This document shows, piece after piece, positions 1 through 56,304 of a DNA stretch of 64,000 nt. The notes below the pieces were generated by a model. That model ran no database searches. It was not told the DNA's origin and saw only the letters and a program-made list of their open reading frames with translations. Source of the stretch: Bacteriovoracaceae bacterium (lineage in GTDB: Bacteria > Bdellovibrionota > Bacteriovoracia > Bacteriovoracales > Bacteriovoracaceae); the NCBI GenBank assembly GCA_023701435.1, contig JAMPXB010000013.1, positions 1 through 64,000 of the forward strand, read 5' to 3'. Both the position numbers and the translations under genes were made by a program. Each line of letters starts with the position of its first letter. The stretch's first letter is position 1.

Positions 1-651
1 GCTAGTGGAGCAGTCACTTCGAGCTTTGTTTACGGATCTAAACCTCATGTTCCTGATTACATGATCAAAGATTCAGTTGAGTATCAGATAATTTCTAATC
101 ACCTGGGAAGTCCTGTGGTTGTGATTGACGCAAGCACAGGGACTATTGCTCAGAAGATAACTTATGATGAATTTGGTAACATTCTTTCTGATACTTCTCC
201 TGGATTTACGCCTTTTGGGTTTGCGGGTTGTTTGTATGATGTTGATACTAAGCTTTGCAGATTTGGGGCGAGGGATTATGATGCTAGTATTGGTAGGTGG
301 TTGAGTAAGGATCCGATATTGTTTAATGGAGAGGATGCTAATCTTTATGGGTACGTATTCAATGACCCGATTAACTATATTGATGTTGACGGCAGAAAGG
401 GATATTGGCTTGCAGTAGCTGGTTTAGCAGGCGCGTATTTAGTTTATCGCTGGGTTGTCGGGCCAATCATTGATAATGCATTTCCCAATGATGATTCCTT
501 TAAATATCCTATGCCTCCTGCGAGGAATACTGATCAACCAAAAGGATTCACTAATCCTCATGGAGGAGCACCTGCTGGTGATCTATCAGGCTTGCCTCCT
601 CGTTTTTCCGGTGAAAAACCAACTTGGGAACCGAAAAATTCATGTGGTTAA
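1..651 (+). CDS. RHS repeat-associated core domain protein, C-terminal part (5' end outside window)
   Basis: Frame open from base 1; YDEFGNIL...[38 protein letters not shown]...[21 protein letters not shown] is the classic RHS core, followed by a short variable tip. Confidence 0.9.
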
Positions 652-30500: not shown

Positions 30501-33500
30501 GCGACAATGGAATAAGTCGTGGTTGTAAGCGATTCCGTGGGTGTTCCGGAAATTACGCAGGTGTTCTGATTAATGCTTGCCCAGGCCGGAAGGGCCGGTG
30601 TGATGTTACAAGTAGTAACTGTTGCACCGTTGCTGGAGAGGACCATTGGAGAGATGGACATTGGTCCACCGATACTGCCATTGGTTCCGGTTGTTCCATC
30701 ATAACTTAAAATTGGTACGGCTGGATTAACGGTCAAGGTAACATTTGCCCCAAGAGAAGGGCCTGTAGTGTTTGTTGCCGTGATGGTATATGTCGTTGAG
30801 GCAACCGTACTATTTGGCGTACCAGAAATTACACAAGTTGTAGGATTGAGTGTGGCCCAGCCTGGCAGTGCCGGTGAACTGCTGCAACCGCTAATAGCAG
30901 AACCATTTTGATTTAAGGTAGTTGGGGTAATGGACATTGAGATGCCAAAGGTCCCAGTGGTTCCGGTCGCTCCGGCATAACTTAAATTTGGTACAGCTCC
31001 GAGAACATTAATAGTTACAGAAGCTCCTGCGGAGGTTCCTGCCGAGTTGGTGGCGGAGATGACATAGGTGTCGGAACTGATTGCATCCGGAGTACCAGTG
31101 ATCACGCAAGTCGTAGGATTTAGCGTAGCCCAAGTAGGTAGAGCAGGATTACTAGTGCAAGCAGAGATGGTTGCACCATTAGCATTAAGTGTTGTGGGCG
31201 AAACAGTCATCGGAGTACCGAATGACCCTGTTGTTCCGGTCGCTCCGGCATAACTTAAGGACGGTACCAGGGCATTTACAGTAAGAGTTACCGAAGCAGG
31301 ATTAGATAATCCTGCCGAGTTTTGAGCTCTAATATTATAAGTCGTAGCACTGAGAACAGCATTCGGCGTTCCGGTAATTTCACACGTTGTGGCATTAAGG
31401 GTTGCCCATCCAGGCAATCCTGGTGAACTGGTACAACCAGTGATAGAAGATCCATTTTGATTAAGGACAGTGGGAACCACCGTCATCGCCGCTCCAAAAT
31501 TGCCAGTGGTTCCAGTGGCACCAGTATAACTTAAATTAGGAACGGTCTGAGTATCCACTCTCAAAGTGACATTGGCCGTCGTCGGTCCAATAGTGTTAGT
31601 TGCGGTTACGGTGTAAGTCGTAGATGCCAATGTTGCATCTGGAGTACCGGAGATCACACAAGTTGCAGCGTTGATGTTTGCCCATGCTGGTAGCGCTGGT
31701 GATATGCTACAAGCAGTTACTGAACCGTTCTCAGAAAATGTTGTTGGAGCAACCGACATGGCGTAACCAACGGCTCCTGTCGTTCCAAAAGCTCCTGCAT
31801 AACTTAAACTTGGAAGAGTAGCATTTACTGTCAGAGCAACAGTGGCTCCAGCTGATGTTCCCGCTGTATTGGTTGCCGTAATAGTATAAGTCGTTGTTGC
31901 AAGTGTTGAAGTCGGTGTCCCGGTAATAACACAAGTCGTAGCATTTAGAGTCGCCCATGCTGGAAGGGCCGGAGAGCTGCTACAGCCTGTGATAGAAGCA
32001 CCATTAGTTGCAAGAGTGGTTGGTGATACAGTCATACCAACGCCGAAGCTTCCGGTGGTTCCCGTGGCCCCTGCATAACTAAGGGTAGGTACAGCTGGAT
32101 TAACTGTAATAGTTAAGGTTGCTCCAGCAGAAGGTCCAGCAGAGTTAGTTGCTGTGATGGTGTAGGTGGTTGCACTTGCAACTACCGTTGGAGTACCCGA
32201 GATCACACAAGTGACAGCATTGATAGTTAATCCTGCTGGCAGGGCCGGTGAGCTGGTACAATTGGTAATGGACGCACCATTAGTTGCTTTATTCGTCGGA
32301 GTGATCGACATCGCAGAGCCAAAGCTTCCGGTTTTTCCGGTAGCGCCGGCATAACTTAATGAAGGTACTGAAGGATTAACTGCGAGAGTCACGTTCGCTG
32401 TTGTCGATCCCAATGCATTGGTGACAGTAACAGTATATGCAGTAGAGCTTAAAATGGCATTGGGAGTACCTGAGATTTCACAAGTAGTGTTATGAATGGA
32501 CGCCCATGCTGGCAATGCCGGTGAAATAGTACAACTAGTAATGCTCGAACCATTTGCACTGAACGATGCCGGTGATACCACCATCGACACTCCAAAAGCA
32601 CCTGTCGTTCCAGTCGACCCAACATAGCTGATGGTTGGAGCCGCGATATAATCAACGTTAATGACGAGAGTTGCTCCACTGGAGATTCCCACCGAGTTTG
32701 TGGCGGTAATGATATAAGTTGAATCTAATTCAGCGTCCGGCGTTCCCGAAATTACACACGTTACTGGATCAATTGTTGCCCAAGCAGGCAATGCCGGAGT
32801 ACTGCTGCAAGCGGTGATTGAAGCTCCATTTCCGCTTAGAGTAGTCGGAGTAATCGTCATTGGATTATTCAAAAAGCCATTGGCGCCAGTCGCTCCCACA
32901 TAACTTAGTGTTGGAACTTTTGCAGAGACACTTAGAGCTACTGTACTGGAAGCCGAGCCAGCCGAATTGGTTGCAGTTATGGTGTAAGTCGTGGAGCTCA
33001 AGGCGGCATTGGGAGTACCTGAGATCACACAAGTGGAAGAATTGATCGTGGCCCAAGCAGGCAGCGCCGGTGAGCTGGTACAACTTGTAATAGCCGCTCC
33101 TCTCTCTAGAAGAGTCGAAGGAGTGATACTCATGGCCGAACCAAAGGTTCCGCTTGTTCCAGTCGAGCCGGAATAGCTGATAACTGGCACAACGGCATTA
33201 ACTCTCAATGTGATATTGGCCGAAGCAGATGATCCGGCAGAGTTAGTGGCGACAACACTATAAGTAGTGGAGGCGAGAGTTGCATTTGGAGTTCCGGAGA
33301 TCACGCAAGTGGAAGTATTGATCGTTGCCCACAGCGGAAGACTTGGTGAAATGGTACAACTGGTAATGGTTGAACCATTATCAACAAGAGTTGTCGGTGA
33401 CACGTTCATAGCAGTGCCAAAAGAACCGGTAGTACCGGTTGCACCAGAGTAGCTTAGCATTGGCGCTGATGCAGAAACACTTAAAGTAACACTGGCGGCG

Positions 33501-35533
33501 CTTGAGGTACCGGCAGCATTAGTTGCTCTGATGTTATAAACCGAAGCCATTAAGACCGAAGTCGGTGTTCCGGTAATTTTACAATTAACAGAATTAAGAA
33601 CGGCCCATGATGGAAGGGCAGGGGTACTGGTACAAGAAGTAATGGCTGAACCATTGGCCTTAATAGTAGTAGGAGAAACAGTCATTGGAACACCAACCGC
33701 ACCGGATGTTCCAAGAGCTCCGACATAACTTAATGTTGGAGCGGCTGGATTTACTGTCAGAGTGACATTGGCGCTCGATGAACCAACAGAGTTGGTAGAT
33801 GTAATACTATAAGTAACGGAAGCCAGAATCGTTGTTGGAGTTCCGCTAATGGCACAAGTTGTAGGATTAAGAGTAGCCCAAATTGGAAGAGCAGGGGTGC
33901 TGCTACAATTGGTAATGCTGGCACCATTGGCATTTAATGTCGATGGCACAACATTTAAAGAATTACCAAGGGTAATGGTCTTGCCAGTTGAGGAGGCATA
34001 ACTAATTGTAGGAACAGCTGCATTTACACTTAAAGTGACGCTAGCCCCAGTGGATGATCCAGCCGCATTATGGGCAGTTACTGTATAGCTTGTGACGCTT
34101 AAAGTTGAGGTCGGGGTACCTGAGATTACACAAGTACCTGGATGAATGGTTGCCCATGATGGTAAGGCAGGGCTGATGGTACATCCAGTAATTGCAGTGC
34201 CGTTGGTAGTCAGAGTTGTTGGGCTTACGGACATTGAGGTTCCGACCGAACCATTGGTACCTGTTGCTCCGGTGTAGCTTAATACTGGTGCCGAAGGATT
34301 AATTTTCAAGCTGACTGTTGCAGGCAAAGAAGAGCCTAGAGTGTTAGTCGCAATAACTGAATAGGTCGTTGTTCCCATGATGGAAGTCGGCGTACCTGAG
34401 ATCACACAAGTGACAGGATCAATTGTTACTCCCGCAGGAAGAGCAGGAGAAATAGTACAACTGGTAATAGCGGCCCCGTTAGGCACGTAAGTTGTTGGTG
34501 CGACATTAAAACTACTGCTGAGACCAATGGTCGTTCCTGCAGCAGCGGCATAACCAAGAAGAGGTCTTGGATTAAGAGAAAGAGTTGCTGTTCCAATATT
34601 TGAAAAAGCGGTGCCCGCCCTGACTTCGTAATTAAATGAGGCGAGTCCGCTTTGATATTGATAACTGGTAACTCCAACCGTACATACGCCGCCTCCACAT
34701 AGGCAGGCGCGTGTGACAGCGGCGTTATTTTGAGTGGAGATATAGCAATTCGTGGCTAAATCATTTTCACTATCTGTGTAAGGTAAAGTGATGATACTTT
34801 GAGCGCCAAGAGTCAGATTGGTTGGTGTAATACTGTAAACAATAGGAGCATCATCTACCGAAACAATGTTTAAAGTTGCTGTTGCTGTGTTTGAAGTAAG
34901 TCCATTTGATACAGTGAAATTAAAACCAGCCGACCCAAAATAGTTAGCTGTTGGCTTAACTGTTACCTTACAGATTCCAAGAGAGCAGGCACAGCTTTGG
35001 GTCATGGCAACGTTAGAAAGAGCAGATACTGTACATGAAGTAGCTTCCTCACCATTTGAATCAACATAATTTAATGTAACTGATCGTTCAGTGTCTTCAC
35101 TGATGGAGAGTGAAAAGTTTTGTACTACTGGCGCATTATCCGTCGGAGCTTGGGGAGTTACAGTAACGGCATTGGACTGAGTTTCACTGACACTATTTTT
35201 GGCTACGGCATAGACGGTATAGGTCTGACCATTGGTTAAGCCGGTTAAAATATAATAAGTGCCGGTAACAGGTATTGTTGTATAAGTGTCGGAAGTTCCC
35301 ATCCGGTATTTCAATTCATAAGAATCTGCATGTGTACTGGTGGTCCATGAGATAGAGGCGGTACCATTTCCTGCAGAGTAACTGGAAATGTTGAAATATG
35401 AAGGGGCGTTGGTTTGAAAATTACTGTCCAAATTATCGCCGGTCTGGGCACCGCCAGACTTCGCACCAGGTGCACCATCGTTACATCCTGCGAGAAGGCT
35501 TAATAATGTCAGAACAGTTAAAATAAACTTCAT
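24413..35533 (-). CDS. Giant 3706-aa lipoprotein: Fn3-like N-terminus, cadherin-like segments, ~34 tandem ~92-aa Ig-like (putative Ig / He_PIG-type) repeats, C-terminal FGE/SUMF1-like domain
   Basis: MKFILTVLTLLSLLAGC lipobox; repeating unit VPxLSYAGATGT..GxxMxVxPTTLxxNGSxITxCxxSPALPxWATLNxxTCxISGTPxxxxxxTTYTITATNSAGxSxGAxVTLxVNA; C-term CVMQFEAKN..., DMAGNAWEWV, MNRGG, GFRCVFRP. Confidence 0.95.
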   Translation of the reverse strand: MKFILTVLTLLSLLAGCNDGAPGAKSGGAQTGDNLDSNFQTNAPSYFNISSYSAGNGTASISWTTSTHADSYELKYRMGTSDTYTTIPVTGTYYILTGLTNGQTYTVYAVAKNSVSETQSNAVTVTPQAPTDNAPVVQNFSLSISEDTERSVTLNYVDSNGEEATSCTVSALSNVAMTQSCACSLGICKVTVKPTANYFGSAGFNFTVSNGLTSNTATATLNIVSVDDAPIVYSITPTNLTLGAQSIITLPYTDSENDLATNCYISTQNNAAVTRACLCGGGVCTVGVTSYQYQSGLASFNYEVRAGTAFSNIGTATLSLNPRPLLGYAAAAGTTIGLSSSFNVAPTTYVPNGAAITSCTISPALPAGVTIDPVTCVISGTPTSIMGTTTYSVIATNTLGSSLPATVSLKINPSAPVLSYTGATGTNGSVGTSMSVSPTTLTTNGTAITGCTISPALPSWATIHPGTCVISGTPTSTLSVTSYTVTAHNAAGSSTGASVTLSVNAAVPTISYASSTGKTITLGNSLNVVPSTLNANGASITNCSSTPALPIWATLNPTTCAISGTPTTILASVTYSITSTNSVGSSSANVTLTVNPAAPTLSYVGALGTSGAVGVPMTVSPTTIKANGSAITSCTSTPALPSWAVLNSVNCKITGTPTSVLMASVYNIRATNAAGTSSAASVTLSVSASAPMLSYSGATGTTGSFGTAMNVSPTTLVDNGSTITSCTISPSLPLWATINTSTCVISGTPNATLASTTYSVVATNSAGSSASANITLRVNAVVPVISYSGSTGTSGTFGSAMSITPSTLLERGAAITSCTSSPALPAWATINSSTCVISGTPNAALSSTTYTITATNSAGSASSTVALSVSAKVPTLSYVGATGANGFLNNPMTITPTTLSGNGASITACSSTPALPAWATIDPVTCVISGTPDAELDSTYIITATNSVGISSGATLVINVDYIAAPTISYVGSTGTTGAFGVSMVVSPASFSANGSSITSCTISPALPAWASIHNTTCEISGTPNAILSSTAYTVTVTNALGSTTANVTLAVNPSVPSLSYAGATGKTGSFGSAMSITPTNKATNGASITNCTSSPALPAGLTINAVTCVISGTPTVVASATTYTITATNSAGPSAGATLTITVNPAVPTLSYAGATGTTGSFGVGMTVSPTTLATNGASITGCSSSPALPAWATLNATTCVITGTPTSTLATTTYTITATNTAGTSAGATVALTVNATLPSLSYAGAFGTTGAVGYAMSVAPTTFSENGSVTACSISPALPAWANINAATCVISGTPDATLASTTYTVTATNTIGPTTANVTLRVDTQTVPNLSYTGATGTTGNFGAAMTVVPTVLNQNGSSITGCTSSPGLPGWATLNATTCEITGTPNAVLSATTYNIRAQNSAGLSNPASVTLTVNALVPSLSYAGATGTTGSFGTPMTVSPTTLNANGATISACTSNPALPTWATLNPTTCVITGTPDAISSDTYVISATNSAGTSAGASVTINVLGAVPNLSYAGATGTTGTFGISMSITPTTLNQNGSAISGCSSSPALPGWATLNPTTCVISGTPNSTVASTTYTITATNTTGPSLGANVTLTVNPAVPILSYDGTTGTNGSIGGPMSISPMVLSSNGATVTTCNITPALPAWASINQNTCVISGTPTESLTTTTYSIVAINARGSSAPATVTISVDSDAPTLSYVGSFGTNGVYGVNMTVTPSVFDNNGISVTSCVSSPALPDWAYINPTNCTITGVPTETLMATIFTITATNTSGNFTDATVTLSVDAMAPVISYSGSDTHGETIGVAMSVIPSTLNSNGSSITSCIASPALPAWATLDNTSCIITGTPPANSNSTHTITATNSVGSASTNIILTAGQQVPLVSYASSTGKTISYNDVLYIQPSTLINYNDPIQNCQITPALPVWATIDNTSCVISGTPETTINNVTYTVVASNTSGDSVGAQVTISVNPAVPTLSFSGAAGNGSIGVPITVAPVILNSNGASITNCVSTPALPLWATLDINTCEISGTPNGAMASTNFTIVATNAAGNSAGAIATLSVDQAVPIISYAGATGTTVNFNQPMNVIPTTLNNNGSAIIACSSNPALPLWATLNATTCEISGTPNAALSATTYTITAQNSIGPSNGATVTLTVNPIAPTLSYVGSVGTNGTMTIPMTVTPTTLSSNGSSIIGCSSSPLLPVWATLNTSTCQITGTPNAVLVATTYTITATNAVGSNTADVTLSVGASAPTISYSGATGTVGDINVPMSVTPTTLNENGASITSCTYSPALPLWASINPTTCVISGTPDDYLPSTIYSITATNSAGSSSANITLAVNPAVPEISYGGASIVADMGTLLTINPTLLKENGSDITLCTNSPTLPAWATLNMQTCAITGTPDLAQAATTYTISAVNGVGTSSGATVTIEVNAAVPTISYAGATGTNGTIGFPMFVAPTTLIENGSAITNCSISPALAGGLSFNASTCEITGSPSANFGPITYVVTVTNGVGSSTAEVTLSTGNTVPSLSYTGAAGTVGTINVSMNVAPTTISNNGSAITQCQATPSLPLWATLNPTTCVITGVPDSYLAPTSYTIVATNSAGPSAGATVTLEVEAAVPTLSYAASTGTQGSIGSPMTVTPSTLNDNGSAISACSVSPGLPLWASLDNNTCVISGTPDTDLSSSTFTITVTNGIGSSTASVTIGVGMSVPDISYIGALGTAGVIAVPMTVTPTTLNENGSEVTQCNISPSLPLWATLTQTTCTITGVPDAVMMATIYTITATNSTGTSTGANVTLSVDAAAPALSYAGATGTNGEIGFGMVVTPTTLNDHGATITGCTASPGLPAWASINSSTCVITGTPNADMVPTEYSVTAVNSKGSTVATVTLSVGINVPTLSYAGATGTVGEIGVEMNVAPTTLDLNGSAIQNCSSSPALPGWLTLNSTTCTITGTPSAQMAAATYTITATNSTGASDGATVTLEVSAGVPTLSYIGSLGTNAVFGVPTTIAPTALNDNGSSILGCTSSPSLPTWATLNATTCTITGTPDDVLMATVYTITAENSSGFSTGAEVTISVSSAAPELSYEGATGTVGEVGVAMTITPTVLNGNGSAIESCTAALPAWASIDPQTCVISGTPDANQGSTNYNVTVMTTGGSSAVAAVTITVGQSVPVISYDGSVTNYNYQDTVSVVPTLLQENGSPINQCLVTPDLPAWATIDQQTCVISGSADSELSATFSIVAKNAVGDSIAAMVTLIVNAGVPELSYTGATGTSGFVGANMTIQPTTLNANGSTITSCISVPDLVNGLTINAETCIISGIPLETVTQTYAITASNNAGSSLEASVTITVGADKPTLDYTDSKGFPAYINSPMAGRPAVFSTNGSPIQTCVVVPDLPLWAILDNNTCEITGTPTALMAPEVFDVTATNAYGSTTAQVTLEVKTCPDGFVEVPAWDDTGLVPVGSEVINDRFCVMQFEAKNVGGKAVSQPASTPWLNITIENAQTACGNLGWEDQNHFDLISNQEWMAIARNIESVNANWLFNTVPEKVMLYTGNSNGNAMSGTKQVSNINDPYTDTGDSALDPIGGGREQGRTFELSNGSTVWDMAGNAWEWVDWDKAALGLQTPPVCANPDNAEEILSVLDGSGNVISDCLGWNKSDFMPTDPTLTKADGVGVFQGDFNGVQMNRGGDPEEGGGIYTIGRENDLAIEDPLVGFRCVFRP
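25255..34580 (-). repeat. ~34 tandem coding repeats of ~270-280 bp within the giant gene (approximate limits)
   Basis: Counted by hand from the protein translation; each unit has ...SYxGxxGT... and C...C...GTP. Confidence 0.9.
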
Positions 35534-45170: not shown

Positions 45171-45305
45171 AGGATCTCCATTTTGAGTGTAAGTATCATA
45201 GGAGAAAATTGATCGCTATCAGTGAGGCGTTAAGATTATATATGAGATGGCAATAGCCAGCAGTGTCTTCACCTTATGCACACAAAGCACTATAACGAAC
45301 CTTGG

Positions 45306-46217
45306 ATGAAGAGTTTATTGGTCAGCCTTCTCTTATTCTTTCATTTGAATCTTCAAGCTCAAACCAGATATGAACTTGAACGGATTAATTTTTATCCTAA
45401 AGTTAAGGCTTATGCTAAGTTAGAATATTTCTATCAGACGCTTTTTATCACCACACCCAATAATACATTAAATAGCAGTGAAGTTCGAAACTATAAAAAT
45501 ACTTTTACTACTACATACGCCTATAAGTTAGATTGGCTGTTTTTAGGTACAACTGTTTCTTATGAAGTGGCTACCGAGAATGCTGCTAATTATGGTATCC
45601 CTTCGAACGAGAGGTTTTCTAGTCAAGGCTTTAAGGAACCGGCATTTTTTTTTAAAACACGTTTGCGGGATCAGCATAACGATAAAGGTAATATAGATTT
45701 ATATTTATCATATTCTGATAGTTACGGTTCCAGAGAAATTGGAAAAAGCTCCGCAAATCGTTTGAATGGCGGAAATATTCTTACCAGCCGAATTACTCAT
45801 GGAATTCATGAGTATGAATGGGAATTCTGTAATAATCTTGAATATTCATTTTTGGGAAAAGGTGAGGAACAGAATGATTTTACCAATATCAAGCATTATC
45901 TGGGTTCATATAACATCATAAGTTATTTTTTTCTCGCTCAATATCAAGTGAATTCATGGCTGTTTTTGAATTCTGGAATAGGTATTGAATACCGTACCGT
46001 TCAGGAAATATCAGACCAGCTCGGAGAAAAGCGTGAAATTCAGGAAGGGACGGGAAGTCTCTTTCGGGTGGGAATAAAAAGACCTCTAAGTGAATGGTCA
46101 TTGGCCGAATTTAGCTATGAGCTCAGGCGCAGTAGTTATTTTGTGAATGGAATATCAACTTTTGATGGTGATTCTTCCCAAAACTCTTTTTTGCTCTCCT
46201 TTATACAGGGATTCTAA
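45306..46217 (+). CDS. Secreted / outer-membrane beta-barrel-like hypothetical protein
   Basis: Signal peptide MKSLLVSLLLFFHLNLQAQ; aromatic-rich alternating strands. Confidence 0.6.
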   Translation: MKSLLVSLLLFFHLNLQAQTRYELERINFYPKVKAYAKLEYFYQTLFITTPNNTLNSSEVRNYKNTFTTTYAYKLDWLFLGTTVSYEVATENAANYGIPSNERFSSQGFKEPAFFFKTRLRDQHNDKGNIDLYLSYSDSYGSREIGKSSANRLNGGNILTSRITHGIHEYEWEFCNNLEYSFLGKGEEQNDFTNIKHYLGSYNIISYFFLAQYQVNSWLFLNSGIGIEYRTVQEISDQLGEKREIQEGTGSLFRVGIKRPLSEWSLAEFSYELRRSSYFVNGISTFDGDSSQNSFLLSFIQGF

Positions 46218-46759
46218 AATCTTTGCTTAAACCCAAGAGCAAGAGAAACTTCATCCTGAGGGTTTATAACGCTACTATTATTAATATAATTTACGATGGT
46301 GATATCATTCATACCAGCTTCCACATAAAATATTTTTGATTCTTTTTTATTATAGGCAACAGAGATCCCCAGATTCATAATTCCTCGTATTGAGCCGATA
46401 GGGTAGTAGTTATCCGGAGCTGTTCCATAATCGTGCGTTTGATATTTAATGCCTAATACGTGAAATATGTTTAAACCTGTATATACGGATATCCGTTTCC
46501 AGTGGAAAAGCTTATAGGTTTGTCTCAGAGTCACTGTCTCTATTAGTGGCCCTCCAGAAATTTCTGAGGGCACAATTCCGTACATGCCACCAATAGAATA
46601 GCGGGAAAATTCTTTTCCTAATCCCAGGGAGATTAGTCCTATTTCCCCTGCAAACTGTGAATTGAAATGATTAATATAAGTTAAGCCTTGGGCATGCAGG
46701 GATAGAAGCAGACCAAAGCTAAAAATCAACTTTTTGATGTCTAATTCCTCCTGGTTCAA
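46214..46759 (-). CDS. Secreted hypothetical protein, probably outer-membrane
   Basis: Signal-like segment LIFSFGLLLSLHAQG; C-terminal F. Confidence 0.55.
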   Translation of the reverse strand: MNQEELDIKKLIFSFGLLLSLHAQGLTYINHFNSQFAGEIGLISLGLGKEFSRYSIGGMYGIVPSEISGGPLIETVTLRQTYKLFHWKRISVYTGLNIFHVLGIKYQTHDYGTAPDNYYPIGSIRGIMNLGISVAYNKKESKIFYVEAGMNDITIVNYINNSSVINPQDEVSLALGFKQRF

Positions 46760-47513
46760 TCATTAACTCGTAGTATGAGCCTTTAGAAGGAGCTCCTATG
46801 GTGATATGTATGGCATTGCCGAAGGTTGATTCCTCCGGGTTGTGATTATGGCCGGTGAAAAAATAATGGATGGCATGTAACTTTGTCAGGTCTTGCCATC
46901 TTTGTATTTGATCCTCAGTAAACCTTTCCCGGTCATTAGGTGGTACATGAGCAATGAGGATGCGTTCACTTGCGTTTGATCCAGAAAGTTGAGCTTCTAC
47001 CCAGGCAGTGTCGGGAACGGTTCCAGAGTTTTCCCAGTTATTATTATCAAAAATGATGAAGTGAACTCCCATGTAGGAAAAAGAAAAATCGCTGTGACCA
47101 AACATTCTTTTATAAATCGGATCACCATTGGCCAATAGGTCGTGGTTTCCAACCGCCACGAGATAGGGATACTTAAGTTTGTTTAAAAAACGTCTCGAAT
47201 TATCATATTCCTCGAGAAGTCCGAGATTTGTGATATCTCCCGCCACGATGACAAAACTATAAGGGCCACGGGAGTTAATGGTGCCTACTAACTCATTTAG
47301 TTCTTCATAATAATTATGAGTGTCAGCAATGAGAGCTATTTTAAAATGGGGTGTTTCAGTAGCTTCTTGTATTTGAATCCGGGCGAGATTCACGGCGTTT
47401 AGTCTTTGTTTGGGTGTATTTGCTGAATAAGTTGAAAGTTTGTACTTACAACTTGAGTATAATAGAAAAATGGTAAGGCATAAAAAAAACTTCACCATGC
47501 GTTTAGATAGCAC
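46719..47513 (-). CDS. Calcineurin-like metallophosphoesterase (secreted)
   Basis: IADTHN, VAGDITN, VGNHD, AHVPP, FTGHNHN motifs. Confidence 0.92.
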   Translation of the reverse strand: MLSKRMVKFFLCLTIFLLYSSCKYKLSTYSANTPKQRLNAVNLARIQIQEATETPHFKIALIADTHNYYEELNELVGTINSRGPYSFVIVAGDITNLGLLEEYDNSRRFLNKLKYPYLVAVGNHDLLANGDPIYKRMFGHSDFSFSYMGVHFIIFDNNNWENSGTVPDTAWVEAQLSGSNASERILIAHVPPNDRERFTEDQIQRWQDLTKLHAIHYFFTGHNHNPEESTFGNAIHITIGAPSKGSYYELMIEPGGIRHQKVDF

Positions 47514-47637
47514 TATCCAATCTTAGTGCCAAATTAGTTGCATCAATCTGAATAGCATTGAGTAATCATCCCAAATACATTCTTAATTCGGGTCAAGAGG
47601 ATGTATAAAGCTATTTATAGGGCATACCATTAAAAGT

Positions 47638-48642
47638 ATGAGAACCTTAATCTTAACTCTTCTCTCTATTGTTATACTCCAGAATTGTGCCAAGCCAACA
47701 GCTACAGTATTTGAAGACAAACGTTTAGAGCAAGAGGAAGTTGTTAAGCTTTGTTTCATAGGTGATTTAGGTAAGGACTCCACCCATCAGCAAACTATGG
47801 CAGATGCTCTAGGACGTGAAGAATGCCACCGGATATTTTTATTGGGTGATCTAGTTTATCCAAAAGGAATTAGTTCGGTGGATGATCCAGAATTTGAAAA
47901 GAAGTTTCTTGATTATTATAAGCCCTTATTAGATCAAGACCCGGATTTAATTATTCCACTTGTCCTTGGTAATCACGATCACAAGAAAGATCCTTCGGCT
48001 TGGAAAGATGTAAGTAAACGCTATGAAGGTTTCTTCTTTCCCAATTATTATTACATGATTGACTACGGAGGCCTTTGCCTCGTCGCACTTGATACCAGCT
48101 TTTATTATTACACCGAAAAAGTTGTTGAGGCTACGGAGCAAGCCAGGTGGCTTTTTCAATTACAATCTAGGCTTAAAGATTGTGAAGTAAAAGTGGCCGT
48201 CACCCATCATCCGCTTAAAGGTGATGGTTACGATAAAACTGATGACTGGGAAGGGGCATCGGGACCATTGAAGGCTTTTCTTGAAACCTATATCATTGGT
48301 AAATTTGATATTCATGTTGCTGGACACGTTCACATCCTGGCCGATGATGGGAGAGATGAAAAAACCCGCATGCTCATAAGCGGTGCAGGTGGAGAAAATC
48401 GTAGTGGCGGAAGATCCGGATTCGTGGTTCTCAGATGGGAACCGCATAATCCTAAACGCATAGGGTATTCTTTGCGGTATGTTGACACCGAAGTGAATGT
48501 CTTTGATGAATCTCAAGCAGAATCAGAATATGACCGGCAGGAACAAGTAGCTTCCGAACAAGAAGAACATATCATTCATAAAAGTCGAGTGGAGCCGTTG
48601 TGGCCAACCAAATTTTTCAGATCTTTATTAGATAAGTTATGA
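47638..48642 (+). CDS. Calcineurin-like metallophosphoesterase (purple acid phosphatase-like) lipoprotein
   Basis: FIGDLGKDS, LLGDLVYPKG, VLGNHDHK, VTHHPLKG, VAGHVHILADDG. Confidence 0.92.
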   Translation: MRTLILTLLSIVILQNCAKPTATVFEDKRLEQEEVVKLCFIGDLGKDSTHQQTMADALGREECHRIFLLGDLVYPKGISSVDDPEFEKKFLDYYKPLLDQDPDLIIPLVLGNHDHKKDPSAWKDVSKRYEGFFFPNYYYMIDYGGLCLVALDTSFYYYTEKVVEATEQARWLFQLQSRLKDCEVKVAVTHHPLKGDGYDKTDDWEGASGPLKAFLETYIIGKFDIHVAGHVHILADDGRDEKTRMLISGAGGENRSGGRSGFVVLRWEPHNPKRIGYSLRYVDTEVNVFDESQAESEYDRQEQVASEQEEHIIHKSRVEPLWPTKFFRSLLDKL

Positions 48643-49306: not shown

Positions 49307-49709
49307 ATGAATAATTTAAGAATTGACCCTTTATTTGATCCGGTGACTAATTCATTAATTATTTCAGAAAAATTTAAAATCAAGCAATGTCCTAAGGGCA
49401 TTTCAAAAATGTAGAGAAGAATTAATGCTAAATTCAACCTACCAATTAGAAGTTCATTTAATTGAAAGTTATTATTATGGTGGAGCGAAAGGAAGACAAA
49501 GATTGGAGCGAAAAGTAGAAATTAGTGAGTTTGGTTTAGCACTTCTTCTTTTGTATATTAATAGTCCAAAAGCGCGTCAGATTTCTGCAGAGATTCTCTA
49601 TCGATTCTTTAAACTGAAAACATACGTTGAAGGATTGAATGATCGTCAGATAGGAGCAATTAAAGGTTACTATCGAAAGCAAATGAGAGGGCCGGGTATT
49701 AAACCTTAG
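49307..49709 (+). pseudogene. Hypothetical gene apparently split by a frameshift near 49360-49412
   Basis: ATG 49307 ORF stops at 49412-49414; downstream part (AFQKCREELMLNSTYQLEVHLIESYYYGG...) continues in another frame to 49709. Confidence 0.45.
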
Positions 49710-49829
49710 AAAAATAAAAAGCTCTGTGTGGTAAACAGTCAATGTTAAAAAAGTTTAATTGATTCTCTTTGTACCTTCTATGCATTAAGCTAACTTTAAA
49801 GTAGTTAAATAAATTGAGAAGAGGAAAGT

Positions 49830-50180
49830 ATGTCAGACGAAAATCAAACATGTCCAAAATGTGAATCTCCTGATGGTTACCAAGATGGTTTGCAATGGGT
49901 TTGTCCAGAATGTTTTCATGAGTGGACTCTTGGAGAAGCTGTAGCGGAGCAAGAAGAGGTTGTTGCCCAGTTTTTAGATGCAAACGGCGTTCAGCTACAA
50001 AATGGTGATTCCGTTACCGTGATTAAGGATCTTAAGGCCGGAAATAGCACAATTAAATCTGGCACCAAAGTGAAGAATATTCGCTTATTGGATGAGCCTG
50101 TGAATGGGCACGATATTTCCTGCAAGATAGATGGAATCGGATCAATGTATCTCAAATGTTCAGTCGTCAAAAAAGCCTAG
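49830..50180 (+). CDS. yjdM: Zinc-ribbon protein YjdM/PhnA
   Basis: CPKCESPDGYQDGLQWVCPECFHEW...DANGVQLQNGDSVTVIKDLK. Confidence 0.95.
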   Translation: MSDENQTCPKCESPDGYQDGLQWVCPECFHEWTLGEAVAEQEEVVAQFLDANGVQLQNGDSVTVIKDLKAGNSTIKSGTKVKNIRLLDEPVNGHDISCKIDGIGSMYLKCSVVKKA

Positions 50181-50218
50181 ACCAGTCAAAAAACTTTAAA
50201 TCAGATAAAATGAAATAT

Positions 50219-50247
50219 AAAGCCCAGCGGATTAAACTGGGCTTTAG
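50219..50247. terminator. Bidirectional terminator
   Basis: AAAGCCCAG-cggattaaa-CTGGGCTTT. Confidence 0.85.
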
Positions 50248-50252
50248 TATAA

Positions 50253-50717
50253 TTACTTTTTTAGTATTAGTTGGGGACCTGATCCTTTTTTACACAACTT
50301 ATCTTCTGGGTTTCTTAATGGGCATTCAGTAAGTGATAGGCAGCCACATCCAATACATTTATCAAGGTGATCTCTAATTTGCATAAGGGCTTTAATTTTT
50401 GATTCAATTTCATTTCTCCAAACCTTACTAATTCGAGTCCAATCAGCATCAGTTAGCTTTCTATCTTTAGGGAGGTTATCCAGCATCGATTTTATTTCTT
50501 CTAGCGAATATCCAATGCCTTGCGCTGCTTTCACTAATGAAACAATTCTTAAAGATTCTCTTGGGAATTGTCTTTGATTTCCATTATTTCGAAATGACGA
50601 AATTATTCCCTTTTCCTCATAGAAGTGAATTGTAGAGATCGGAAGACCACTTCTTTTAGAAAGTTCACCAACAGAAAGAATTGCTTTTAGTTTTGAATAA
50701 AATTGTTCATTACTCAC
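50253..50717 (-). CDS. soxR: Redox-sensitive MerR-family regulator SoxR (GTG start)
   Basis: MerR HTH (LSVGELSKRSGLPISTIHFYEEKGII) and [2Fe-2S] motif CIGCGCLSLTEC (CX2CXCX5C). Confidence 0.94.
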   Translation of the reverse strand: MSNEQFYSKLKAILSVGELSKRSGLPISTIHFYEEKGIISSFRNNGNQRQFPRESLRIVSLVKAAQGIGYSLEEIKSMLDNLPKDRKLTDADWTRISKVWRNEIESKIKALMQIRDHLDKCIGCGCLSLTECPLRNPEDKLCKKGSGPQLILKK

Positions 50718-50729
50718 GGTATTTCTCCC

Positions 50730-50760
50730 TTGACCTCAAGTTAACTTGAGGTTGTATCTT
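50730..50760 (+). promoter_or_regulatory. SoxR box within a MerR-type promoter
   Basis: Perfect palindrome CCTCAAGTTAACTTGAGG at 50734-50751, between TTGACC (50730-50735) and TATCTT (50755-50760), 19-bp spacer. Confidence 0.9.
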
Positions 50761-50796
50761 GTAGCATTATTACGTCAATTTCAAGAGAGGTTTAAA

Positions 50797-51150
50797 ATGT
50801 TAGGATATGAAATGGCTAAAACAGTTCACTTTGTTTCTATTTTAGGAGTCTTTATTGCTACAGGGTATTCATTTGCACTGATGAATAGCGAGAGTAAGGC
50901 GAAGAAAATTGCAGATAATTTACAGGCTGTTTTTGGAATATTAATTTTTGTTAGTGCCTTTTGGCTAGCCTCGGTACTTGATCTGAATTCGAATTTCCCA
51001 CGATGGGGAAAATTGAAAACGGTCTTATGGTTTCTGCTTACTATTCTTGGAATATTTTCAACAAAGAAAAAGTATGCTTCAAGAGGGCTGTTTGCAGTAA
51101 TTTTTATTCTAGGATTTCTTGCGATTGGAATAGCTGTATTTAAACCATAG
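50797..51150 (+). CDS. Small polytopic membrane protein, putative SoxR target
   Basis: ~4 TM segments, AGAGAGG RBS, directly downstream of the SoxR box. Confidence 0.8.
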   Translation: MLGYEMAKTVHFVSILGVFIATGYSFALMNSESKAKKIADNLQAVFGILIFVSAFWLASVLDLNSNFPRWGKLKTVLWFLLTILGIFSTKKKYASRGLFAVIFILGFLAIGIAVFKP

Positions 51151-51222
51151 GTATAAAAAAAGCCCTGTGTGGTAGACAGGGCTTAGAATCTTTCACTTAT
51201 TACGAAGCTCCTGAAAGTAATT
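51151..51222. repeat. Diverged copy of the tRNA-His-linked terminator repeat
   Basis: AAAAAAAGCCCTGTGTGGTAGACAGGGCTTAGAATCTTTCACTTATTACGAAGCTC; similar to 53073 and 56153 copies through the TTTCACTyATT segment. Confidence 0.65.
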
Positions 51223-51225
51223 TTT

Positions 51226-52842
51226 CTATCCTTTTGCAGACACTGTATTAATTTTTCGATAAAAATATCCGCAGGCATAAACCAACCCACCTATTATTAA
51301 AAGCGATATAATTCTTTGCCCCTGACCGAGCATGCCGAAGGAATTAAAAACGAAATAAGCGATAGCAATAAAAATAACTGGAAAGACTGATTTTGCAGTT
51401 GTGGCATCTTGCTGCTTCATTCCGCGATAGAGAATAATAAATGCGTAAACGGTCCAAAGTTGAGGCACACCATATTCACCAACAATCTCTTTAAGTCGGT
51501 AAATTCCTATAATAAATTGTGAATGGGCTATCCCAAGTATAATTTCTTGATGAATTCGACTTTTCTCCGAGTTATAAATGGCAATAACTCCATAAAGAAA
51601 ACCAAAGAAGACGAGAACCAAATTAGGTGTAGAGCCTTGTGAAAAACTTAAACTTAGAATTCCATAAGCAGTCACTAGGGCCAAAATGATTGTTACCCCA
51701 TTAAACTCTGGTCGAATCGGATATCTTTTTGAAAATGAAAATGCAATTAAGATGCAGGCAACAGTTGCATACCGAAAAATGTCATTCATCGCTACAAAGA
51801 AGATAGCATGCGCAAGTATAACCGAAATGAATAAGTAAATTACAGGAGCGCTATTCAGCTTCTCGTTACTCAGTTTTGAGTTAGCAGTTTGAAGAAGAAC
51901 AAGAAGACTAACAGAAAAAATCACAGCAAATGCGGTCGCAAAATATGGATTGATCTTGTCTAGAATATAGAAAACATGTCCATAGAAGAATAGATATACA
52001 GGAAAGAATTGCTGTGCTTCTGACAAAGTAAGCTTTGCTTCGTTTTTAACTGTATAAAGTAATGTAGCAAGTGAAAAAATAATCATTTGAATTGTTTGTA
52101 ATAGGACAACTGGCCATTTTAGGTCAGCTTGCGAGCTAATCGAAACGACAACCACAAGAAAGAGTGAGAAATAGGCACATAATACAATGATTGAACGAAT
52201 TTTGAGTTTAATCGCTGTCGCTGCATATATACAATTCCAGGCCAGTAGATAAATCGAAAAATAATTTAGAGAAGAAAAACTATCTTTCAAAAGAACTGCG
52301 CCTAAATAAGTTCCAGCGGCTGCCATTATTGCAAATGTTTCTTCTTTAAATTTTGAAAGAAGCCATAGGGACATGACACTAACCAGAGCAGTGCCTATCA
52401 AACCGATTAAGGGCGAAAAAAGTAAGTGATAGAAAACACAACCGTAAATTGTAAGATGAAGAATGGCAATTCCTGCAGCGGGTAGTATCGAGAAGTAGGT
52501 GCGGTCTTCAATCTTGTTAAAGGCCGGAACGAAAATGAGTGATAGCCCAAATAAGGTAGCTAGGACCATTTGCCTTACAGGTGTAAGCCATCCACTATCA
52601 ATCGAAAACTTTATTAGAAGAACTATTGCAAAAAGAAGACAACCTGCCCCTACATACCCCAAGACATTACTAGGCTTTGGGTTTTCCTTAACTTTCATTT
52701 CGTTATAAATAGGTTCCGAAATGGGAAGCGGCGGTGGTGTTTGATTAGCTACGACTGGGAATATTATTTCTTCAAGTTTCTGAAGACGATCTTTGAGAGC
52801 ATTTATTTCGTTTAAAATAGACTGCTGACCATTTTCTTCCAT
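51226..52842 (-). CDS. DUF2339 polytopic membrane protein
   Basis: N-terminal coiled coil plus proline-rich segment, then many TMs (NVLGYVGAGCLLFAIVLLIKFSIDSGWLTPVRQ). Confidence 0.88.
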   Translation of the reverse strand: MEENGQQSILNEINALKDRLQKLEEIIFPVVANQTPPPLPISEPIYNEMKVKENPKPSNVLGYVGAGCLLFAIVLLIKFSIDSGWLTPVRQMVLATLFGLSLIFVPAFNKIEDRTYFSILPAAGIAILHLTIYGCVFYHLLFSPLIGLIGTALVSVMSLWLLSKFKEETFAIMAAAGTYLGAVLLKDSFSSLNYFSIYLLAWNCIYAATAIKLKIRSIIVLCAYFSLFLVVVVSISSQADLKWPVVLLQTIQMIIFSLATLLYTVKNEAKLTLSEAQQFFPVYLFFYGHVFYILDKINPYFATAFAVIFSVSLLVLLQTANSKLSNEKLNSAPVIYLFISVILAHAIFFVAMNDIFRYATVACILIAFSFSKRYPIRPEFNGVTIILALVTAYGILSLSFSQGSTPNLVLVFFGFLYGVIAIYNSEKSRIHQEIILGIAHSQFIIGIYRLKEIVGEYGVPQLWTVYAFIILYRGMKQQDATTAKSVFPVIFIAIAYFVFNSFGMLGQGQRIISLLIIGGLVYACGYFYRKINTVSAKG

Positions 52843-52925
52843 GACACCCTTCTTAAAGTGATGATGATTGAAGTTAAAACACATTAACTTTGATTGTACA
52901 TAATACGGGATTTTTAGAAACTTAA

Positions 52926-53063
52926 GATCCCTCCCTTCCTGGAGCACAAGAAGAACTTCGAAACTACAGCGATCGTGCTCTCAAAGAAAGAACTGGAAGA
53001 TCACCGATTCAGCCAGACAATGTTCCTGATGAAAAGGATGAGATGGAGAAATTGGAGTTGTAA
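52926..53063 (+). pseudogene. C-terminal remnant of a truncated gene
   Basis: Open frame without start: DPSLPGAQEELRNYSDRALKERTGRSPIQPDNVPDEKDEMEKLEL*, followed at once by the repeat/terminator at 53073. Confidence 0.4.
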
Positions 53064-53072
53064 AAAAGCTAA

Positions 53073-53154
53073 AAATAAAAAAAGCCCTGTGGGTTAAACA
53101 GGGCTTTAGTATGTTTCACTCATTGCTGAGATCATCACTGAATTTAATGGGGTG
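53073..53154. repeat. 82-bp direct repeat, distal copy (partner 56153..56234)
   Basis: AAATAAAAAAAGCCCTGTGGGTTAAACAGGGCTTTAGTATGTTTCACTCATTGCTGAGATCATCACTGAATTTAATGGGGTG; one mismatch to partner. Confidence 0.98.
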
Positions 53155-53231
53155 GCGTTCGATAGGGGGGACAGTCATGAGCACAGCTATATTCTTGCTA
53201 CAGCTTTTTCAGATCTAACCATCTCAATTCA

Positions 53232-53565
53232 TTACAGAAAATTACAATTTGTAATGCCTCTTTAAATACTGTCTTTGTTGGTGAGTGTGATATGTGGGCC
53301 AGAAAACACCCTAAGAATTTAGGGATTGGTTCTGGTGGGGCGAAGGTGTCGCGCCCTTCTTCGTAAACCCCACTAGTTTTTAAATTCTAGCAGATCCTTG
53401 AAAAACCTCAAGAAGTCTCATGCATTACAGGGTCAGAGTGTAATTGTCCGGATTTTATGTTTAGATTTCAACCATGTTTCTTCGTAATTAAAGGCGGTTA
53501 AGTTTTTTCCTACTGTGACCGAAAGGAAGTGTAATGTTACAATTTTAACTATTACACTTGTTACA
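53232..53565. promoter_or_regulatory. Cluster of ATTACA/TGTAAT inverted repeats, candidate operator or centromere-like array
   Basis: ATTACA 53232; palindrome ATTACAATTTGTAAT 53242-53256; ATTACA 53424 / TGTAAT 53439; TGTAAT 53530, GTTACA 53536, ATTACA 53551, GTTACA 53560. Confidence 0.7.
53336..53374. other. Structured inverted repeat (nested hairpin) of unknown role
   Basis: GTGGGG(53336)...CCCCAC(53369) enclosing CGAAG(53342)...CTTCG(53360). Confidence 0.5.
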
Positions 53566-53576
53566 GGCTGGGCTTT

Positions 53577-54092
53577 GTGAAGAATAAAAAATTAACTCGA
53601 GAAGATATTTTCGAAGTGGCGTTCAAGTTAGAAAAAGCTGGAATTGAGCCTAGTTCAAAACTTATTCGTGAAGAAGTCGGATCAGGAAGTCTAACGACAA
53701 TCACAAAGTATTTAAAAGAGTGGCAATCAGGTAAACAACATAATAGGAGCGAGAACATTGTCTCCATTCCAGATATTTTGGGCCAAGTCGACAACGAACT
53801 TCTTAAGGACTATTTTTCCAATGAACTCCCACAAGTCACAGCATTGATTTTTTCATATCTATCTCCTGAGAGAGCTGCTGAGGTTCTTAAAGAATTTGAG
53901 CCTTCAAGAAGAGAGAAGATATTATCCAGGATGGAAAATATTGGTTATGTACAAACCCAAACGGTCCAACAGATAGCATTGACAATAATGTCTGAATTCA
54001 ATTCAGTTATTCTTGCCAAGGGAGAGAAAGTTGGTGGTAAGAGTTTTGTTAAATCTATTAGAAAAGAATTAGCAAAAGAAGGGAGTTTATGA
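53577..54092 (+). CDS. KfrA_N-like DNA-binding domain fused to FliG middle (FliG_M) domain
   Basis: GTG start; LTREDIFEVAFKLEKAGIEPSSKLIREEVGSGSLTTITKYLKEWQ (KfrA_N-like) then DNELLKDYFSNELPQVTALIFSYLSPERAAEVLKEFEPSRREKILSRMENIGYVQ (FliG_M; ELPQ in place of EHPQ). Confidence 0.8.
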   Translation: MKNKKLTREDIFEVAFKLEKAGIEPSSKLIREEVGSGSLTTITKYLKEWQSGKQHNRSENIVSIPDILGQVDNELLKDYFSNELPQVTALIFSYLSPERAAEVLKEFEPSRREKILSRMENIGYVQTQTVQQIALTIMSEFNSVILAKGEKVGGKSFVKSIRKELAKEGSL

Positions 54093-54721
54093 CTAGTCGA
54101 AGAATAAAGTCGGAACAGACCGTGAATAATTCGATCGATTATTATAATTTCTGCAACGCAAATAATGATCTTCCAGTTTTGAGGATTTTAAACGAAAGGT
54201 TTAATCGTTTAATGAGGATTACATTCTCAAATCATTTGCGAATGATTATTACGACTGATTTTAAGGAGTCGAAAACCATATTTAAAAATTGGATTGAGCA
54301 TAACTCAAACATGAGTTTCATGTTTGTTGTGAGTCTCCAAAAACTTGGCGCCCCTATTCTTATAAAATTTGATAGAATACTTGCCTATCGGATAATTGAT
54401 ATCCTAACTGGCGGTTCTGGTGTATCTGATGTCGAACTTGAGGATAAAGAAATCACCACAATAGAAATCGGTTTATTAAGGGAAACCTGTCTGAAGTTGA
54501 TCAATGATCTGAACGAAGCATGGGGCCCTGTTTGTGAAATAAAGGCCAGTTATGTTAGGGCCGAAGTGAATGCTCAATTTATAGGATTTACTCCATCTGA
54601 ATCCAAGATGATTAAGGTTGATTACAATATTTGTTTTAATAATACAGTTGGTACTTTAGAAGTCTTATACCCATACTCAACGCTATTTCCATTAAGGAAT
54701 GAGTTATTCGCTTCTCTCTAG
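54089..54721 (+). CDS. Stand-alone FliM middle-domain protein (no CheY-binding N-terminus, no SpoA/FliN C-terminus)
   Basis: LPVLRILNERFNRLMRITFSNHLR..., GAPILIKFDRILAYRIIDILTGGSG, KEITTIEIGLLRETCLKLINDLNEAW, YVRAEVNAQFIGFTPSESKMIKVDYNI, YPYSTLFPLRNEL; ATGA overlap with upstream gene. Confidence 0.85.
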   Translation: MTSRRIKSEQTVNNSIDYYNFCNANNDLPVLRILNERFNRLMRITFSNHLRMIITTDFKESKTIFKNWIEHNSNMSFMFVVSLQKLGAPILIKFDRILAYRIIDILTGGSGVSDVELEDKEITTIEIGLLRETCLKLINDLNEAWGPVCEIKASYVRAEVNAQFIGFTPSESKMIKVDYNICFNNTVGTLEVLYPYSTLFPLRNELFASL

Positions 54722-54964
54722 TATAGGACTCAACTCATCCACCCTCGTGTCCGAAAGGGTCTGGCCCGCATCTCGGCTTAGGCCGTGGCTTTGAATGTCG
54801 CTGTTTTTCTGGAATATTAAATTGATGAATAAATATCTTCTTTGGATGGAAGATGAGATTGATTGTCACTAACCTTATTTGGCGTAGTCACGTGTTTCAA
54901 TTAGATGAATATTTTGAAAAGTTTAAGTACGTAGTTATCTTTAAGAAACTATCCTTTTAAACAT

Positions 54965-55420
54965 CTATTTAAAGAATATCCACATAGGTCTTCTTAGTGG
55001 ATCTTGATTATCATACTCAAAGGTTATTCTAAGCTCAGGAATCTCAACTTTATATCTGTCTTCTTCAACATCTGTAGCCGTTGTTGGAAGTTCTGTTTCG
55101 ATCCATTTGTAATCCTTGAAACGTTTTTTTAAAAAATTATATGCATCGAAATTAACCCAGTAAGGCATAGAAGTTCCTAATACTTTCCCCGAAGATTTAC
55201 TTACAGATGTTGAAAAATCCTTGTAAGCATATTCTTCACTGATATCATCTTCTGGTCTTACTTCTAGAGGTTGGCCAAAAGTTTTAATTAATTCATCTTT
55301 TGTCGCGACTTTTTGAACATGGATGATTTTGTCAAAAATATCCCTTGAGCTATCAGTTTGTGATAACTGAGAAGAGCATCCAAAAGAAAACATTAGTGAT
55401 ATTAAAATGAAAAATTTCAT
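54965..55420 (-). CDS. Lipoprotein of unknown function
   Basis: MKFFILISLMFSFGCSS lipobox; TKDELIKTFGQPLEVRPEDDISEEYAYKDF (SmpA/OmlA-like 'GxP' style, tentative). Confidence 0.7.
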   Translation of the reverse strand: MKFFILISLMFSFGCSSQLSQTDSSRDIFDKIIHVQKVATKDELIKTFGQPLEVRPEDDISEEYAYKDFSTSVSKSSGKVLGTSMPYWVNFDAYNFLKKRFKDYKWIETELPTTATDVEEDRYKVEIPELRITFEYDNQDPLRRPMWIFFK

Positions 55421-56112
55421 TTTGGTTCTCTCTTTTTAATTATCCCCTTTATGAAGGAGAAACTGGCAGGATTGAGTTTTTTAAGAAGAGTTGGATTTGA
55501 ATAATACAACTCAATATGGTTTGCATAATCTTCGCTTACGGATTCCGACGAATCGGGAATGATTAAAGTTTTGGGAGGTATTTTGATATTCTTTTTTCGA
55601 TCAATGATCCACCCAGAAGACTTAGCAAAGCCAGCCATTTCTTCATTGCTTAAATCAAGAATAGTAAGATGACCGACTTCATGAATAAGCACAGCAAGCT
55701 TATTTGGAGCTTCAAAAAATTTATCAAATACAATTAGAGTTCTTGTAAGAGGTATTCCAGCTGCGGGGTTGTGAGCATTACCTCCGACATCGCCTCTAAG
55801 TTCTTCTCCAAGCCTGTAATTCTTGAGCCATTGAGGAAGTTTCGCAAGATATTCATCAACTACTTTTTTTTCATCTGGTTTCCATTTTTTGATATTTGTT
55901 TTTATTTTTTTGAAGGTTTGAGCTGTTGAATCTTTATAATAGTTGAAGCGAGTTAATTCTCGGCAATGAGCTTTCCTGGTGTGGGCCCTGACATTTGTAC
56001 TGTCGGTTTTAGTGTATGACTCGATCCACTGTTCACGTACATAAATTTCATGAGGGCTGCAAAGCCCAGCAAAAGCGAGTGATGAAAATAGAATGAGGAA
56101 AATAAATGCCAT
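55417..56112 (-). CDS. Secreted HExxH zinc metallopeptidase-like protein
   Basis: Signal peptide MAFIFLILFSSLAFAG; LIHEVGHL; downstream ESVSEDYANHIE. Confidence 0.75.
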   Translation of the reverse strand: MAFIFLILFSSLAFAGLCSPHEIYVREQWIESYTKTDSTNVRAHTRKAHCRELTRFNYYKDSTAQTFKKIKTNIKKWKPDEKKVVDEYLAKLPQWLKNYRLGEELRGDVGGNAHNPAAGIPLTRTLIVFDKFFEAPNKLAVLIHEVGHLTILDLSNEEMAGFAKSSGWIIDRKKNIKIPPKTLIIPDSSESVSEDYANHIELYYSNPTLLKKLNPASFSFIKGIIKKREPK

Positions 56113-56152
56113 TATAAAATTCTAACAGCGTCAGAGTGGGGGTCAACTTTAG

Positions 56153-56234
56153 AAATAAAAAAAGCCCTGTGGGTTAAACAGGGCTTTAGTATGTTTCACT
56201 CATTGCTGAGATCATCATTGAATTTAATGGGGTG
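56153..56234. repeat. 82-bp direct repeat, tRNA-proximal copy (partner 53073..53154)
   Basis: Includes terminator hairpin GCCCTGT...ACAGGGC and the last bases of tRNA-His. Confidence 0.98.
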
Positions 56235-56304
56235 ACCGATGGGGATCGAACCCACGACAACCAGAATCACAATCTGGCGCTCTACCGACTGAACTACGGT
56301 CACC
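56228..56304 (-). tRNA. hisT: tRNA-His (anticodon GTG), CCA encoded
   Basis: GGTGACCGTAGTTCAGTCGGTAGAGCGCCAGATTGTGATTCTGGTTGTCGTGGGTTCGATCCCCATCGGTCACCCCA; cloverleaf with G-1:C73. Confidence 0.97.

Follow-up and report, generated by a model that had tools for sequence, protein, structure and literature searches.

A KfrA_N-FliG_M fusion gene paired with a minimal FliM gene in the tRNA-His region of a Bacteriovoracaceae genome

In the flagellar C-ring, the middle domains of FliG (FliG_M) and FliM (FliM_M) contact each other through two motifs, EHPQ in FliG and GGXG in FliM. A co-evolution study places this contact at G132-G135 and the end of the 131-147 loop of FliM, and at E126-Q129, A132, I162 and A163 on the FliG side (PMC4642947). 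The KfrA proteins of the IncU plasmid RA3 and its relatives have an N-terminal KfrA_N helix-turn-helix (HTH) domain followed by a long alpha-helical tail, and are partnered by KfrC. RA3 KfrA oligomerises, interacts with segrosome proteins and represses its own promoter via five TGTATTGTA repeats around the -10 element, a motif that is unique on the plasmid (PMC7783346). Type II toxin-antitoxin operons, which consist of two overlapping genes with an autorepressor-like DNA-binding protein encoded upstream and have a patchy, mobile distribution, and elements integrated at tRNA genes, which are flanked by direct repeats including the tRNA 3' end, are the other described systems with which the present locus can be compared.

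The locus lies in a 64,000-nucleotide stretch of a Bacteriovoracaceae genome, here called the window, and consists of two plus-strand genes. Gene A (53577..54092) has a GTG start and encodes a protein of 171 aa in which KfrA_N is fused to FliG_M, and gene B (54089..54721) has an ATG start and encodes a protein of 210 aa that contains the FliM middle domain only. The open reading frame ends meet in an ATGA stop/start overlap (54089..54092, plus strand), and these coordinates bear out the gene positions, the overlap and the co-translation proposed in a preliminary description of this DNA. Pfam finds KfrA_N in A residues 7-70 (53595..53786, plus strand; 3.6e-13, 50.6 bits against a cut-off of 26.1), with a GSGSLTTI(S/T)K core conserved across five homologues, and FliG_M in residues 76-144 (53802..54008, plus strand; 2.3e-16), a segment that also matches FliG chains in the PDB; both scores are well over the gathering cut-offs. 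Against the full FliG profile the alignment of A spans only positions 113-207 of 338, and in the profile search FliG_N, which binds FliF, and FliG_C, which carries the torque helix, are absent from the 171-aa protein, the sub-matches of the Pfam FliG_N and FliG_C models landing on the same middle segment. Gene B matches the Pfam FliM profile (1.4e-30) with residues 26-206, covering profile positions 12-192 of 192, and has no Pfam match to the FliN-like SpoA domain. Aligned with native FliM, it is devoid of the LSQDEVDALL CheY-binding peptide and stops short of the C-terminal domain, and it falls below the NCBIfam fliM cut-off (110.9 versus 219.6 bits). The Pfam results thus agree with the domain assignment that had been made by eye, including the attachment of rotor sequence to a KfrA-type DNA-binding domain. 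ELPQ occupies the position of the EHPQ FliM-contact motif (A83-86; 53823..53834, plus strand), where five homologues all keep E, P and Q but vary at H, and GGSG occupies the GGXG FliG-contact position (B108-111; 54410..54421, plus strand), with GG invariant in all homologues. Together with the alignments and the profile coverage, these motif positions uphold the proposal that only the FliG_M-FliM_M contact pair has been retained.

Structure models agree with this assignment. AlphaFold models A (mean pLDDT 80.8) with a helical DNA-binding head (helices 8-20, 27-34 and 39-54), a poorly predicted linker at about residues 55-60, and then residues 73-149 folded as FliG_M helices, with no long coiled-coil tail. 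Superposition of the FliG part on 4fq0_C, which is FliG in the Helicobacter pylori FliG-FliM complex, gives 1.0 A over 74 columns. For B, the model (pTM 0.81) has as its top PDB match 4fhr_A (E 8.7e-18), the FliM chain of the Thermotoga maritima FliG-FliM complex. Foldseek searches with the B model also match FliY, CheC and CheX, phosphatase-fold proteins of the same superfamily; B is nevertheless far closer to FliM, and a CheC-type catalytic motif is not apparent by eye. Compared with the C-ring complexes (4FHR, 3SOH, 4FQ0), A and B are predicted to have the same folds and have mostly the same contact residues, but they are reduced to the middle domains. Compared with plasmid KfrA proteins, A shares the HTH domain but carries FliG_M in place of the long tail, its partner gene encodes FliM_M rather than KfrC, and it sits at a chromosomal locus without a plasmid partition system. 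By their defining features the two proteins are neither FliG, FliM nor a typical KfrA, and the pair looks like a KfrA autoregulator that uses a rotor contact as its pairing device.

The residues at this contact were compared among the homologues, with the second FliM contact cluster taken as 144-147. On the B side, the positions of FliM G132, G133, T144, I146 and E147 hold the same residue in all five proteins, so that invariant residues make up 5/7 of the contact positions against 30/178 overall (P 0.0016). On the A side, the positions of FliG E126, P128, Q129 and A132 are invariant in the five homologues (4/8 of the contact positions against 10/100 overall, P 0.003). The contact residues have thus been selectively retained, which does not amount to proof of binding; they are also conserved in native FliG and FliM, so part of the enrichment may reflect constraint from the fold. 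Three positions that are near-invariant in native proteins have changed: that of FliG H127 is occupied by L, L, H, H or T across the five A proteins, that of FliG A163 is a charged residue in every A, and FliM F131 is kept in no B. As judged from these alignments, the changes speak against binding of A and B to native partners, and the two proteins may have co-adapted away from those partners and become partly insulated from the native rotor.

Upstream of A there is an operator-like inverted repeat, AAGTGTAAT-15-ATTACACTT (53527..53559, unstranded), found by repeat search. A consensus scan places a sigma-70-like promoter (GTGACC-17-TACAAT; 53515..53543, plus strand) with its -10 element inside this palindrome, and a terminator-like hairpin after B (54785..54801, plus strand). 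An overlapping element, ATTACACTTGTTACAG (53551..53566, plus strand), has half-sites 9 bp apart and was found in a RTTACACTTGTTACAG scan to be common to the host genome (G000) and another carrier of the pair, G110. With zero mismatches allowed, a search of eight genomes finds the 16-mer RTTACACTTGTTACAG at two sites only, both upstream of A, one in G000 and the other in G110, whose A proteins are only 36% identical despite the common sequence. In a third carrier, G001, the corresponding place upstream of A has arms of 14 bp with the sequence of the host repeat, and the form GTGTAA-(15..20)-TTACAC occurs once in G000 (a 3.6-Mb genome) and once in G001, both at the A promoter. Remaining palindrome matches lie inside open reading frames, except one in G059, which precedes a protease-like gene. 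The 70 bp upstream of the five A genes hold 10 TGTAAY half-sites against 0.87 expected, a number reached in 0 of 2000 dinucleotide shuffles; the operator-like repeat is clear in G000 and G001 and weak in G110, G061 and G059, where one or two half-sites are present. As in RA3 KfrA, there are thus TGTA-type repeats over the protein's own promoter that are unique on the replicon (PMC7783346), a likeness which for A is one of sequence. By analogy, A may be an autorepressor and the repeat its candidate operator. Because the full operator form occurs once in the host genome, autorepression rather than a flagellar regulon is indicated; a regulon of this kind was considered and is unsupported, the operator-like sequence being confined to the A promoter in the host. 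An operator-like GTGTAATTGTTACAATTTCAGGTACTTACAC that resembles the window's operator lies upstream of a trypsin-like lipoprotein gene in G059 (G059:C29, L163:1501-1531).

Full-length A was found in 5 of 375 Bdellovibrionota genomes, scoring 242-256 bits where native FliG reaches about 77 bits at most, and the carriers represent five genera of one family, by record titles the Bacteriovoracaceae. The gene pair, which it had been proposed to look for elsewhere, therefore recurs in four further genomes; it is missing from 125 of the 130 genomes of the family, in nearly all of which native fliG is present. B directly follows A in all five carriers (G000, G001, G059, G061 and G110), with a junction of ATGA in G000, G061 and G110, TAGTG in G059 and a gap of about 10 nt in G001. 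Between genomes A is 27-40% and B 30-48% identical, against 75-81% for native FliG and FliM in the same genomes. In a FliM tree with phylum-level outgroups, B is robustly recovered as a single clade (100/99) next to native Bacteriovoracaceae FliM (94/93), a placement suggesting that B descended from a native-type fliM; a tree with close native sequences only, in which the midpoint root splits B owing to long branches, was not used for transfer history. A phage or plasmid origin was considered and rejected, since no full-length A was found in viral contigs, phages or plasmids, where partial matches to A were KfrA_N proteins and searches with B matched only ordinary FliM. A wider scan of genome contigs, with sensitivity limited by its pattern seeds, recovered only the same four relatives above the native-FliG level, and neither PHROGs nor PADLOC gave a match for A or B.

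Several B-type genes occur outside complete pairs. In G060, B lies at a contig end, its upstream part falling beyond the contig. A stand-alone B-type FliM_M gene without A is present in G044 (G044:C6, L145:1501-2136), with an AGTGTA-21-TACACT repeat upstream, and 12 of its 35 invariant residues are changed. In a close relative of the host, G082 (G082:C17, L220:11699-12112), where A is absent, a truncated B relic of 137 aa and 66% identity lies beside a repeat copy in the tRNA-His region. The relic and the lone B suggest that B depends on A, an argument that is weak since the B of G059, where A is present, is divergent at 18 of 53 positions, nearly as much as the lone B.

The host carries a full-length fliG (G000:C4:62545) and fliM (G000:C48:23269) on other contigs than the pair, so A and B are extra genes. 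In the window, nothing flagellar was recognised near the pair, the ten proteins searched against Pfam including six window neighbours, and neither a flagellar gene nor a conserved neighbour was recognised around it in any carrier genome. The surroundings are unrelated among carriers, so that a neighbourhood common to them was also rejected. In the window the surroundings of the pair are chromosomal, and the variable region is anchored at a tRNA-His(GTG) gene (56228..56303, minus strand; RNA search), the only RNA element found around the pair. An 85-bp direct repeat, consisting of CACCCCA and a terminator hairpin, is present in a left copy (53070..53154, minus strand) and a right copy (56150..56234, minus strand) that are 98% identical, the right copy overlapping the last 7 nt of the tRNA, as in tRNA-integrated elements. 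The repeats bound a 3.08-kb unit that holds A, B and two unrelated minus-strand genes, one with a lipoprotein-like start that is separate from the A/B operon (54965..55420) and one for a secreted-type protein (55417..56112), both without Pfam matches and both present without A/B in G094 and G084. This unit differs from typical tRNA-integrated elements in that no recombinase or integrase was recognised in it, such genes being found in related arrays; no partition or other maintenance gene was found in it either. Degenerate repeat copies lie further left (51143..51210, minus strand; 49702-49738 and, weakly, 50219-50250), those at about 49.7 and 51.1 kb sharing the tRNA orientation, and related repeats recur beside tRNA-His in same-genus genomes, with nine matches in G094 and five in G084. 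G087 has conserved genes on the left flank (45276-48642) and on the right flank, but nothing that matches the window from 48.6 kb to tRNA-His. Because the interval is repeat-bounded and variable, has no match in G087 and has a B relic in G082, the pair is accessory cargo of a hypervariable tRNA-His region, in keeping with the earlier suggestion that it belongs to a mobile element. In the other carrier genomes no flanking direct repeats of at least 20 bp were found around the pair; within about 7 kb of the G061 pair, however, lie a tmRNA gene and an integrase-like open reading frame.

Other features of the region were recorded in their own right. Repeats of about 85 bp beside tRNA-His, each with the CACCCCA tRNA 3' end, a small hairpin and a terminator, form an array at 49702-56234 and in G094:C15, G084:C52, G091:C9, G100:C45 and others, where they bound units of 0.4-4 kb with varying cargo that includes RES-domain, acetyltransferase-like, methylase-like and unassigned genes. 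The array resembles a cassette-like integration hotspot, and the two-gene unit at 54965-56112 (minus strand) is found again in further tRNA-His arrays of this genus, often between repeats. Serine recombinase genes at L216:2046-3134 (G084, directly beside tRNA-His) and L219:9525-10355 (G091) and a tyrosine integrase gene at L221:3914-4441 (G104) are candidate movers of the array units. Elsewhere in the window, 24413-35533 (minus strand) encodes a repetitive protein of 3706 aa whose numerous Ig-like repeats are nearly identical and whose C-terminal domain is of another kind.

Sequence comparison and modelling establish the architecture, the apparently obligate pairing, the retention of contact residues, the uniqueness of the operator-like repeat and the accessory location. 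The preferred reading, given a probability of about 0.6, takes A and B for a mobile module of two proteins, joined by the rotor contact and subject to autorepression. The two genes would be translated together as a dedicated pair and belong to the accessory cargo of the tRNA-His-anchored variable region; B, as FliM_M, would bind the FliG_M of A through the contact that joins FliG to FliM in the C-ring, and the KfrA_N domain of A would bind the TGTAAY repeats over the A promoter. We infer from this arrangement that the A-B complex represses its own operon, like plasmid KfrA proteins. Beyond autoregulation, the leading guess, put at well below even odds, is action on the flagellar switch, where B or the A-B complex would cap native FliG or FliM and lower motility, with A as an antidote-like autorepressing partner. 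More doubtful is a version in which repression of the operon by A is governed by B or by the host's rotor proteins, released A and B cap the C-ring, and the islet both senses and tunes motility. Interference with the rotor would explain why the FliG_M/FliM_M contact in particular has been kept. The fast divergence and the changes at H127, A163 and F131 would instead follow from insulation from the rotor, and a rotor-independent role is almost as likely as action on the flagellar switch.

One such role, possible though with the odds against it, is that of a KfrA-like DNA scaffold independent of the rotor, in which FliG_M and FliM_M replace the KfrA coiled coil, multimerise and stabilise or organise element DNA around the operator. 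The genome-unique operator-like repeat, the three changed contact positions, the low identity of A and B (27-48%) beside that of native FliG and FliM, and the oligomerisation and segrosome contacts of RA3 KfrA (PMC7783346) favour a scaffold; yet the unit is chromosomal and has no partition gene, integrase or other maintenance gene, and a scaffold leaves unexplained why this contact was kept over any other oligomerisation domain. An unlikely alternative is a motility module resembling a type II toxin-antitoxin system, in which B would be a dominant-negative FliM fragment that blocks the rotor and A a DNA-binding antidote, FliG_M decoy and autorepressor. The layout is that of type II operons, with the DNA-binding gene first, the partner second, an ATGA overlap and an operator over the promoter; the distribution is patchy and mobile, a RES-type toxin gene lies in a sister array, and G082 and G044, which lack A, both have a damaged B. 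That damage fits plain co-dependence equally well, however, the changes on the contact side argue against strong binding to native FliG, and A and B have no PADLOC match and no known toxin or antitoxin fold.

The preliminary description had also offered a regulator that reads C-ring assembly, and such a checkpoint controlling flagellar genes has a precedent in principle, in that polar flagellates couple transcription to MS-ring and rotor formation through FlrBC and FleSR (PMC7064773). Its chances are now slim: the strong operator, a perfect palindrome in G000 and G001, is found only at the pair's own promoter and at no other site in the host genome, exact copies of the 16-mer lie only at A promoters, and the pair is missing from most of a family that nearly always has native fliG. 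It is similarly improbable that A and B are decaying duplicates or pseudogenes of fliG and fliM without function, for which the fast divergence and the relics in G082 and G044 could be cited, since the fusion, gene order, open frames and contact residues have been kept in five genera and an operator-like repeat is retained. Splitting of the native fliG and fliM of a flagellar operon, which has domain similarity alone in its favour, is ruled out for practical purposes by the complete native genes on other contigs, the absence of flagellar neighbours and the placement of B as a separate clade beside native FliM.

As far as found, the A/B architecture is real, recurring and undescribed; a search of the open-access literature on KfrA with FliG gave no relevant report, in line with the initial statement that no described system of this architecture is known. 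The mobile, autorepressed module proposed here would be the first known case of the minimal FliG_M-FliM_M contact working outside a complete rotor and wired to DNA, and would offer a natural minimal system for studying that contact and its specificity. The array of repeats at tRNA-His in which the pair lies is itself an undescribed-looking cargo site. A and B would illustrate the recruitment of components of a large machine into mobile regulatory modules and, if they act on the rotor, would represent a mobile-element route to motility control in bacteria whose predation needs swimming.
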